Assembly (NCBI GenBank): GCA_029260075.1
Contig: JAJDDY010000015.1
Location: forward strand, 1 to 41,892
Origin: Phycisphaerae bacterium
GTDB lineage: Bacteria; Planctomycetota; Phycisphaerae; UBA1845
Length of the DNA stretch: 41,892 nucleotides
Direction: 5' to 3'
Shown: positions 10,118 through 12,748 of the stretch, in pieces
Numbering within the stretch: the stretch's first letter is position 1
Layout: each line of letters begins with the position of its first letter
Program-made: the position numbers and the translations under genes
The notes under the pieces: model-generated
The model's database searches: none
Told to the model about the DNA's origin: nothing
The model's input: the letters and a program-made list of their open reading frames with translations, nothing else

Positions 10118-10541
10118 CGCGTAGCCACGCGTCATTGCACAGCGCGTGCCCATTTTTGCGCAGCAAGAGTGGGGGACGGATGAAACATTGGGTAGCTCGT
10201 CGACGCCGTCCGTCCCGCACTCTTCGGGAGTACCCGAAGAATGGGGCATCAAGCCCATCAGTTTCCGAGGATTTGCATTCTTCCAAACCTTGTTCAACGG
10301 CGACACGCCATAACCTTGTGATCATCCGGCTTTGATAGGCAAGTAAGTTGTCGGGACGAGATAGGAATCTCATCCCAGCATGCTAATGGGATCACCGGCT
10401 GGAAGCCGGTGCCACACTTGTGCCACAGCCGACCGGAAGGTAGTACCACACTTGCTTCACTACCTGATGGAAGGTAGTGCCACACTTGCTTCACAACTGG
10501 CTGGAAGCTGGCGCCACACTTGATCGTCAGGTCGGGGATGT
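10118..10541. other. intergenic region, mostly repeat DNA
   Basis: 10118-10385 carries no recognisable gene; short frames on either strand lack start signals and motifs, and this may be decayed sequence. 10386-10522 is a tandem array of palindromic repeats, listed separately. The region lies between the convergent pilT-like gene and the selenoprotein gene. Confidence 0.55.
10386..10522 (+). repeat. four-unit array of GGAAG...GCCACACTTG palindromic repeats
   Basis: Four units of about 27-34 bp each end in (G/A)CCACACTTG. Each has a small inverted repeat around GGAAG: ACCGGCTGGAAGCCGGT; a degenerate CCGACCGGAAGGTAGT; CTACCTGATGGAAGGTAG; and CTGGCTGGAAGCTGG. Compensatory changes keep the arms paired in units 3 and 4 (CTACC/GGTAG), which suggests selection or mobility acting on the hairpin. 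The first unit is the same palindrome as the dispersed repeats at 2832 and 12358. Confidence 0.7.
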
Positions 10542-11162
10542 TCAGCTTAGTGTCGTATCGTCGGTGTCAGCAAGAACTCCATAACCGCCAAAAGCTAAAC
10601 GCTTGCCCGAGTGCTCGAACATCGCCGCCGGCATATCGCGCACGCCCATCGCGTCCGTCCATGTATTGAAGAAACGGAAAAGGGAACACACGGTGATCGC
10701 GTCGAAGATGGCTTCGTCGGAGCAACCCGCCTGGCGTGCCCGATCGACGTCCGCCTGCGTGACTGCGGACGCATCGCTATTGGCCAGATCAACGAGCCGC
10801 AACAACGCCCGGTCCTTCTCTGGAATGGCTGCGGACTCGAAGTCCGTAAGGACAGCGGCCACGAGATCTTTGTCGCCGAGTAACTCAGCCGCGACCGCGG
10901 CGTGCGTGCCGTCTCAGAAGACGCAGGCGTTTCTTCTTGAGACGAACGCCGCAATCAACTCGCGAAAACCGGGCGAAAGCGGCGATGGGGCGCGCATCAC
11001 CGCTTGCACAAAGCTCATCAACAACTTCGCTTGGTCCGGCTTGAACGCCGTCAGATTCATCATTCCGGGGACGGGAAGCCCGGACGCCTTGAGTTGTTGC
11101 ATCGCGGCGCCGAGCGGTCCGCCATTGGCTTCGGCTACAGCGGGGAGAAACACGGTGTGCAT
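10542..11162 (-). CDS. AhpD-like / carboxymuconolactone decarboxylase-family selenoprotein (Sec83)
   Basis: Two frames (11162-10914 and 10913-10542) are in phase and separated only by a TGA at 10916-10914. Read through, they give a 206-residue protein with the complete AhpD catalytic set: Glu68 in FRELIAAF, Cys80, TGA-encoded residue 83 and His87 in ACVF-U-DGTHAAVA. This matches Glu-x11-Cys-x2-Cys-x3-His of mycobacterial AhpD (E118, C130, C133, H137), with the TGA exactly at the resolving/peroxidatic Cys of the CxxC. A SECIS-like hairpin follows. The start is ATG 11162 with GGAGG six bases upstream. The family comprises thiol peroxidases and disulfide reductases; substrate and reductant are unknown. 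Selenoprotein members of this superfamily have been reported. The alternative is a nonsense mutation, but open frame, motif position and hairpin all argue against it. Confidence 0.85.
10888..10901 (-). promoter_or_regulatory. SECIS-like hairpin downstream of the in-frame TGA
   Basis: On the mRNA, 12 bases after the UGA come GCCGC-GGUC-GCGGC: a 5-bp GC-only stem with loop GGUC. The loop starts 17 nt after the UGA. Bacterial SECIS elements typically place a small apical loop with an early G about 16-37 nt after the UGA, and the E. coli fdhF element also presents GGUC in its loop at 18 nt. SelB would bind here. Confidence 0.7.
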
Positions 11163-11223
11163 CGACGACCTCCAATCGGTATAGCGACATCAGCGTGACA
11201 TGTGCAGCGCTCTGTCAATGGTT

Positions 11224-11303
11224 GGGTGGCCCATGGCTTCAGCCGTGGGGGAGTCGAATCGGCGTCGGATTCGACTCCCCCACCTCTAAAGAGATGGCCA
11301 CCC
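11224..11303. repeat. long imperfect palindrome (possible REP-type element or bidirectional terminator)
   Basis: The inner arms GTGGGGGAGTCGAATC (11245-11260) and GATTCGACTCCCCCAC (11268-11283) are perfectly complementary. Outer arms GGGTGGCCCAT and ATGGCCACCC (11294-11303) also pair, with one extra base. It sits between the SGNH-like lipoprotein gene and the selenoprotein gene, both minus strand, so it may end the upstream transcript. Confidence 0.65.
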
Positions 11304-11356
11304 GGTGCGTGTGGCGTAACCGAAACTCTAAGTGCCGCCTAATTGGCACTCCAAAA

Positions 11357-12181
11357 CTACTCGACCCGTCTTGATTCCATGTATGCGTGCATCATGTTCA
11401 CGACGTCATAACTATGCGCGTGCATCTTCTGCACGACATCTTCCCTCGCGTCCGCGCCGGCTACGGTTCGATACCATCCCTCAGCCATGATTTTCATACC
11501 GCGCTCGTTGGGGTGGACGCGGTCCTGCGTGAACGCGCCCGGATGTTCGTTACGCGTCGGCGTCCAGACGTCAGGCCCTTGGAAGATGAAATTGTGACCG
11601 CGACTCAGCAAGACATCAAGCGCCAAGCGTTCGTTACCGACTTCCGGCTCGATCGGCTGCTTGTAAATGTGCATGCCGTAGTAGACGCGATCGATACCGT
11701 GCTCGTGAAGTCTGACGGCGAGTTTTTCGAGGGCGTCCGCCCCAATCTCAATACCCTTGCGGTCGTCGGCCGATGCAATCGGTCCGCGTTGCGTGCGCGT
11801 GAACTGAAGCGACTGCTGACACAGCGCGATCTTCGGCTGCGGCGCGTCGCCACGCAGGCGGGCATCGTCACCCCAATAGTCACGCAGCATCGGCATCATC
11901 GTACGCTTGTACGTATCAGAATCCGGTTCGCCGATCCACCGCTCGACCGCAGCGCCACCGATCGTGGCGTTAAGCACGTAGTACTTGCGCTTACCACCCG
12001 CATGATCATCCAGCATATCCTGAAGCATGTCGGGCCACGCGAACGAGGTGGAATAGCCGACGATCACGAAGGACTTCTCACGACCGTCCAGCAACGTGTG
12101 CGTAGTCGCACACCCTGTCGATGCCAACGCCGGACCCACGACCAAGACGGCCATGGCCAATCGTCGAAAAAGATTGCTCAT
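11357..12181 (-). CDS. SGNH/GDSL-hydrolase-like lipoprotein
   Basis: A 274-residue protein with an N-terminal signal (FRRLAMAVLVVGPALASTGC). Cys24 is a likely lipidation site, although Ser at -3 is not the most usual lipobox residue. After the signal, SFVIVGYSTSFAWPDML resembles block I of SGNH hydrolases, with Ser in place of the GDS serine, and DRVHPNERGMKIMAEGWY near the end matches the DxxH block V that supplies the catalytic Asp/His. VLNATIGGAAVERW may serve as block II. The fold assignment is an inference from these spaced motifs. Such esterases or acetylhydrolases often deacylate carbohydrates. ATG 12181 is preceded by GGAGAG. The gene stands alone between repeat-rich gaps. Confidence 0.65.
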   Translation of the reverse strand: MSNLFRRLAMAVLVVGPALASTGCATTHTLLDGREKSFVIVGYSTSFAWPDMLQDMLDDHAGGKRKYYVLNATIGGAAVERWIGEPDSDTYKRTMMPMLRDYWGDDARLRGDAPQPKIALCQQSLQFTRTQRGPIASADDRKGIEIGADALEKLAVRLHEHGIDRVYYGMHIYKQPIEPEVGNERLALDVLLSRGHNFIFQGPDVWTPTRNEHPGAFTQDRVHPNERGMKIMAEGWYRTVAGADAREDVVQKMHAHSYDVVNMMHAYMESRRVE

Positions 12182-12748
12182 TCGTTCTCTCCGATTTGTG
12201 TCGAGGGAATGGCGACGCGGACTCCGGCCCGATTCACTAAGCGCAGTGGCTCATAATGACGACCACATGCACAGCACGCCGCCCCTGAACCAACACGAAG
12301 GAATTTGTCCCCGAACATGACGTCGGTGTCAACTACGCATACCGGCCCTACCCTGACGGCCTGTTGAAAAAGTGTGGCACCGGCTTCCAGCCGGTGATCC
12401 ATTAGCGGTTTTCTCCTCTTGACCGGGACAAGTCCCGTTGTCACGGGGGATTCGCGGTGACGCGCTTGAATTCCTGCATCGTTCAACACCCTGCTAATAC
12501 CGTTTCCAAAAACGTCGGGCCATACTTCGCTCCTCCCCCTTCATAAGGTGGGGCCGGGGAAGGTTTTTTCCAGACCGAAGCCCCCTTGATCCCCCCTTCG
12601 CAGGGGGGAAAGAACGTAAGACAGCCAATTCTGGACACGGCACTAGGACGGTGTAGGAGGGCGGCGCCTTTTCACATGCGTCGAGCAATCGTTCTGGAAT
12701 TGCTCGGCGACGCGAACGTCTACGGGAAATACCGTTGGCGATTGGTCG
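12182..12748. other. repeat-rich intergenic region
   Basis: No convincing gene is present. It contains a reverse-oriented copy of the dispersed palindromic repeat (12358-12450), a GC hairpin CCCCCC-TTCGCA-GGGGGG at 12591-12608, and a lone sequence GGACACGGCACTAG ending at 12645 that resembles the MITE terminal repeat. Short frames here translate repeats only. Confidence 0.6.
12358..12450 (-). repeat. dispersed palindromic repeat, copy B
   Basis: The reverse complement matches copy A (2832-2925) over roughly 90 bp: GACAACGGGACTTG, GGTCAAGAGG, CGCTAATGGATCACC, the palindrome CCGGCTGGAAGCCGG and GTGCCACACTTTTTCAACA. Confidence 0.75.

Follow-up and report, generated by a model that had tools for sequence, protein, structure and literature searches.

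An ordinary listing of open reading frames reports two separate pieces on the minus strand of a Phycisphaerae bacterium contig (10914–11162 and 10542–10862), which raises the question of whether this locus is a gene broken by a stop codon or encodes one protein that continues through a TGA. The window, by which we mean the whole stretch of DNA analysed, comprises 41,892 nucleotides (contig JAJDDY010000015.1, assembly GCA_029260075.1). The original prediction was of two in-phase frames split by one TGA, which an ordinary annotation would give as two fragments, and both points agree with what we read. What looks like a stop-broken gene is, very probably, the gene of a redox enzyme that contains selenium.

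Reading frame and start of the gene

The minus strand reads from 11162 to 10542 as one frame of 206 codons with an ATG start, a single in-frame TGA and a terminal TGA (Table 1). Glu68, Cys80, TGA83 and His87 were found in the AhpD spacing claimed for them, and the strong ribosome-binding site expected before the start is present as GGAGG. In comparison with the ortholog L022, the part up to the TGA has 43 identical residues among 79 aligned and the part past it 71 among 111, with different codons for 28 of the 43 and 41 of the 71 identical residues. Such identity despite many codon differences indicates that both halves of the gene are under protein-level selection. The further claim, that family character is kept to the end of the protein, holds up to about residue 195; residues 198–207 are of low confidence in the structure model.

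Repeats were observed on either side of the gene. Upstream, a 30-nt inverted repeat (window 11231–11297) is 83% complementary, its arms 7 nt apart. Downstream, a degenerate repeat with 34-nt spacing is arranged around GAAGCCGGTGCCACACTTG at 10394–10522, and occurs also at 12369–12387 and 2897–2915 (five window matches with at most three mismatches, against 0.02 expected).

Table 1. Positions of the gene and its proposed functional elements in the window.
Feature	Position	Strand	Evidence
Predicted Sec-containing AhpD-like (TIGR01926) gene, 206 codons and TGA stop	10542..11162	(-)	Open frame, profile matches
In-frame TGA at codon 83, very probable selenocysteine codon	10914..10916	(-)	Frame and homolog comparison
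Glu68 codon, proposed proton-relay position	10959..10961	(-)	Frame, alignment; relay as described in PMC3141380
Cys80 codon, proposed partner of Sec83 in CxxU	10923..10925	(-)	Frame, alignment
His87 codon, proposed proton-relay position	10902..10904	(-)	Frame, alignment
Putative SECIS hairpin GCCGC-GGUC-GCGGC, 5-bp stem, 4-nt loop	10888..10901	(-)	Synonymous constraint, covariation, bSECIS model
GGAGG ribosome-binding site, 6 nt before ATG	11169..11173	(-)	Read directly

Family assignment and predicted fold

The read-through protein gave one match to TIGR01926 (NCBIfam, peroxidase-related), of 98.2 bits against a curated cut-off of 81.8, extending through the TGA from residue 11 to 178; the active-site residues of the family, Glu68, Cys80, TGA83 and His87, are also present in order. 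Pfam CMD matched with 44.5 bits (cut-off 23). The AhpD core model TIGR00778 scored 24.2 bits, under its curated cut-off of 27.8, and the protein is therefore filed under TIGR01926 and not under AhpD proper; the score for TIGR04030 was far under its cut-off. Two (seleno)protein models, NF041238 (AhpD_rel_CFYUT) and NF053654, matched weakly over the AhpD core with 34.4 of 175 bits and 20.1 of 310 bits, respectively, and since these scores are far under the cut-offs the protein is assigned to neither family.

The structure was predicted from 33 aligned sequences (the window protein, 31 Sec relatives and L154, a relative with Cys at codon 83), with a mean pLDDT of 91.7. The top fold matches of the model, 2prr, 6k40 and 3c1l, are all AhpD-like or peroxidase-related. 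The Cys-type peroxidase-related structures 6k40, 2oyo, 2prr, 3c1l and 2pfx gave sequence E-values of 1.9e-16 to 3.1e-11 against the window protein and Foldseek TM-scores of 0.68–0.81 against the model, and 6k40, 2oyo and 2prr have Cys at the site where the window protein would have Sec. Mycobacterium tuberculosis AhpD (1gu9) was a weak whole-fold match (E 0.8).

Selenocysteine machinery in the same genome

If the UGA is read as selenocysteine, selA, selB, selD and a tRNA-Sec should be found in the same genome, as the original prediction had pointed out, and all four are present in the window's own assembly (4.92 Mb, 93 contigs). The selB (C4:63175–65052) and the adjoining selA (C4:61745–63103) scored over their cut-offs, as did selD, which itself has one in-frame TGA falling in SCAGUAGK, with GCUUCC-GGU-GGAAGC standing after it. 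One tRNA-Sec on contig C85 exceeded the gathering score and was identified by ARAGORN as tRNA-SeC, anticodon TCA. Two marks of a bacterial selenoprotein are present, namely Sec machinery in the genome and an in-frame TGA aligned with the Cys or Sec of homologs.

Further AhpD-like genes were observed in this genome. Two on contig C86 have one TGA each, and a distant homolog on C56 has no stop and reads CxxC. In the paralog L155 the TGA is followed by another hairpin (GACCUC/GAGGUC), whereas L156 shows only a weak one. Other Sec-type TIGR01926-like genes, represented by L155 on C86 and by L026–L050, are common in relatives; they read mostly HYU or LYU, many have DLR after the site, and the codons CTC CGG frequently follow the TGA.

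Conservation of the TGA at codon 83

A search of related genomes gave matches in 37 of 60, the window's own included. When the best place in each of 30 genomes was read, TGA was found at codon 83 in 29 of the 30, the window's own among them, and TGT in the other (L025). Many lower-scoring places in this search lacked the stop, indicating that other residues at codon 83 are common further out. In a sample across the phylum, 19 of 392 genomes (own included) matched at E<=1e-35, and all 23 of their places, the window's among these, hold at least one TGA. When the loci were read singly, TGA stood at codon 83 in the window and in 19 others; the second copy in each of three tandem pairs (L071, L072, L074) is left out of this count, having been read as its neighbour. 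AhpD-like genes with a TGA lie side by side as tandem pairs at G205:C200, G174:C33 and G348:C69.

Contigs of named genomes were also scanned. With the single protein as query no relatives were found in these contigs; with the alignment as query, relatives turned up in 250 of 438 pattern matches. The best 80 of these 250 were kept, and 79 have TGA at codon 83 together with Cys at codon 80, the exception being L154 (Thr80/Cys83); picked by likeness to Sec queries, this set is not a census. By their titles, these loci belong mostly to Planctomycetota, Gemmatimonadota, Acidobacteria (Acidobacteriota) and myxobacterial isolates (Myxococcota), and a few others (Deltaproteobacteria, Cyanobacteria, a Comamonas record) may be mislabelled. 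The site codons of L075 and L076 (Planctomycetota; Phycisphaerales) are the same as those of L022 and L023, from genomes of the window's family, in keeping with a planctomycete origin of the window. Gemmatirosa kalamazoonensis also has TGA at codon 83, and Myxococcus xanthus strain AM003 is a further carrier of the gene. The Sec-type copy L051 of G. kalamazoonensis KBS708, with identical hairpin bases, lies on its 1.04-Mb plasmid 2. The site residues of L136, from a record titled Comamonas sp. KCTC 72670 (9.0 Mb genome) that is possibly mislabelled, equal those of Pyxidicoccus L112, and a neighbouring ORF of L136 belongs to a family common to the Myxococcus loci L106 and L107.

Alignment of the homologs thus gives Sec or Cys at position 83, as the prediction had anticipated. 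For the comparisons below, the 27 singly read loci and 80 named loci were pooled and, after removal of L154 and of rows repeating the same 180 nt, yielded 95 distinct Sec sequences. The two fragments of the ORF listing are what would be seen if a former Cys gene had been broken by a change of TGC or TGT to TGA, or if a sequencing error had placed the TGA there. Against a pseudogene stand the recurrence of this TGA across 95 distinct sequences from several phyla, the protein-level selection on the part past the TGA, and the Sec machinery in the genome. The shared TGA likewise makes a misreading of TGC or TGT, a concern raised with the prediction, very unlikely. With the TGA common to 95 sequences and selection continuing after it, we reject both the pseudogene and the sequencing error as wholly improbable.

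The occurrence of selA was examined in 30 genomes (18 other genomes of the phylum sample, 11 of named Sec loci and that of L154), and 27 were over the cut-off (26 of 29 without L154's). No selA match was obtained in G141 (92% complete) or G273 (67%), and G235 was just under the cut-off. Among the genomes of the relatives search, 51 of 60 have selA over the cut-off, so that co-occurrence gives little contrast. No selA match was found in G002 (98% complete), G005, G007 and G047 despite their TGA-bearing homologs, and only a partial one in G017 and G022; these absences and partial matches may be assembly gaps.

A SECIS-type hairpin downstream of the UGA

The putative hairpin, which the original prediction does not mention, starts 12 nt after the UGA and its GGUC loop 17 nt after it. 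As set out in PMC13188914, the bSECIS model has a 4–16 bp stem, a loop of 3–9 nt carrying G at its first two positions and lying 16–37 nt after the UGA, and an MFE <= −7.5. The window element falls within this model (5 bp, GGUC, 17 nt), and its local 20-nt fold gives the hairpin at −9.9 kcal/mol. When the 53 nt that begin at the UGA were folded freely, the hairpin was not the minimum and the fold was no better than shuffles (z 0.20); a 42-nt free fold prefers another structure, the hairpin being obtained from the local 20-nt fold only. Searches of Rfam gave no family over 10300–11450 at E<=1, and across the window the only hits to reach gathering scores were two tRNAs. Because free folding of the 53 nt did not single the hairpin out, comparative evidence was needed.

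Codon entropy was determined across the 95 distinct Sec sequences at 62 columns in which a four- or six-fold degenerate residue predominates. Codons 88, 91, 90, 89 and 92, in that order, have the five lowest entropies (0.21 to 0.82 bits), with the next column at 1.10 and a mean of 1.45. The bases of these five codons are GCCGCGGTCGCGGC in 63 of the 95 sequences and GCCGCAGTTGCGGC in 11, and a subfamily signature of UGA, 12 nt, then GCCGCGGUCGCGGC or GCCGCAGUUGCGGC is found in 74. Stem cells are paired in 98.5% of cases, compared with 19–76% if the stem is slid by 1–3. The outer bases of the loop, 21 and 24, switch jointly from G-C to A-U (GC in 74 sequences, AU in 14, GU in 4, unpaired in 3), and two-sided changes are seen at stem pairs 16-29 (one sequence), 17-28 (one, as G-U) and 18-27 (two). 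Local folds of 20 nt give this hairpin in at least 88 of the 95. The nearest Cys relatives are without the conserved hairpin codons: in L154 they read GCC GCC TCA ACG ACG and in the Streptomyces rows they are variable, although the residues differ as well. On these comparisons a bacterial SECIS is the best reading of the element after the UGA, though it is not the structure preferred in longer free folds.

Since an open frame alone cannot identify the residue inserted, the UGA might instead specify Trp or some other amino acid through reassignment, or be passed by plain read-through. Such recoding is most improbable, given that the Cys relatives have Cys at codon 83 and that a hairpin of bSECIS form follows the UGA. 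Reassignment is also weakly opposed by the 7 of 21 long window ORFs that end in TGA, a count that says little because the ORFs were listed with TGA taken as a stop. Judged from the sequence comparisons, UGA at codon 83 is almost certainly decoded as selenocysteine.

Proposed decoding and chemistry

In the mechanism we propose, SelA and SelD would supply Sec-tRNA and selenophosphate, and tRNA-Sec with SelB would decode UGA83 as Sec, directed by the hairpin. Sec83 would stand in for the second Cys in the CxxC site of AhpD; Glu68 and His87 would form a proton relay, and Cys80 would be the resolving residue. Sec83 would attack a peroxide or disulfide to form a Sec-Cys selenenylsulfide with Cys80, which cellular thiols would reduce. 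The relay of M. tuberculosis AhpD, as described in PMC3141380, consists of Glu118, Cys130, His132, Cys133, His137 and a water. Glu118, Cys130, Cys133 and His137 share the spacing of Glu68, Cys80, Sec83 and His87. Sec83 thereby corresponds in position to Cys133, which we take to be the attacking residue of AhpD, and Cys80 to Cys130. The remaining relay residue, His132 in AhpD and Tyr50 in PA0269 according to the same account (PMC3141380), is Phe82 in the window protein, a point against the scheme.

The whole explanation, a TIGR01926 selenoprotein with UGA83 decoded via a SECIS and a Sec83/Cys80 redox site, is highly probable in our judgement. Redox chemistry at Sec83 is probable from the family and the motif, and by analogy with the family the protein is likely to function as a Cys-Sec peroxidase or thiol-disulfide reductase. 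A selenoprotein with another reaction, such as reductive dehalogenation like that of Bmp8, an AhpD-like debrominase, or with a role resembling that of sestrins, would be in keeping with Bmp8 (6ohi, 6ohj) among the fold matches at E<=0.001 and Sestrin2 (5t0n) among the weaker ones, and a CxxU site could fit several two-electron reductions. The peroxidase-related 6k40, 2prr and 3c1l, several of them named uncharacterized, are far closer in fold and sequence, and we consider another reaction unlikely. No AhpC was present among the eight neighbouring ORFs scanned with Pfam. Neighbourhood clustering of the 80 loci and the window, with crude ORF calling, gave no clear partner gene; its largest cluster (50 loci) is mostly an antisense frame of the Sec gene itself.

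Cysteine relatives and position 80

When 135 rows were compared at the site, 122 read CxxU, 8 TxxC and 5 CxxC. Besides L154, the TxxC group consists of seven genes from Streptomyces plasmids; all but one of its members outscore L025, the best CxxC row, and the eighth falls below it. The sampling (11 plasmid loci of 156 records) was small and self-chosen, so the link between Sec and Cys80 is only a lead. A FastTree tree of the 135 rows requires four changes at codon 83 and two at codon 80; as it is rough and weakly supported, with long branches, no origin is drawn from it. We suggest tentatively that a distinct Sec-dominated TIGR01926 subfamily (Planctomycetota, Gemmatimonadota, Acidobacteriota, Myxococcota) may have kept CxxU and a near-invariant SECIS, that Sec and Cys80 may form a unit that plain Cys cannot replace, and that the Cys lineage may have changed mechanism on losing, or never gaining, selenium.

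Relation to known AhpD-like selenoproteins

Selenoprotein versions of AhpD-like proteins, whose existence the original prediction noted, are indeed documented and go back to 2005. Of these, 27 AhpD-like (COG2128) Sec sequences with CxxU are given in PMC1088965, 299 of AhpD-like 1 (COG2128, CxxU) are listed in PMC2398784, and a 2026 review table has an AhpD-like protein under TIGR01926 with CxxU (PMC13188914). All three share with the window protein a CxxU in which Sec is second. The review gives one example accession and the other two give metagenome counts, and their members may belong to the FU[TIL]GSHAAVAAELL subfamily of the window protein or to others. AhpD-like (COG2128) is also among the genome selenoproteins of PMC1794560, and a carboxymuconolactone decarboxylase is listed for Geobacter sulfurreducens (PMC1242214). 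Selenoproteins in Planctomycetes are reported in PMC4807772, in a main text without ‘AhpD’. No title or abstract start in the literature searched, which mostly excludes subscription journals, concerns the FU[TIL]GSHAAVAAELL subfamily.

The protein is well supported as a further member of the known AhpD-like TIGR01926 CxxU selenoproteins. Unlike the earlier listings, the present case brings together genome, Sec machinery and hairpin conservation, and it adds a subfamily that is dominated by Sec and extends across several phyla; among the Cys relatives compared, the seven with the best scores read TxxC. If the tentative view of position 80 is true, Sec and its Cys80 partner would be one functional unit, and the TxxC lineage, without a resolving Cys, would use another mechanism. 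The GCCGCGGUCGCGGC/GCCGCAGUUGCGGC signature would make it easier for annotation pipelines to call such selenoproteins in full, both in bacteria of soil and groundwater and in myxobacteria that can be cultured; in the latter, selenium-dependent redox chemistry could be tested directly.
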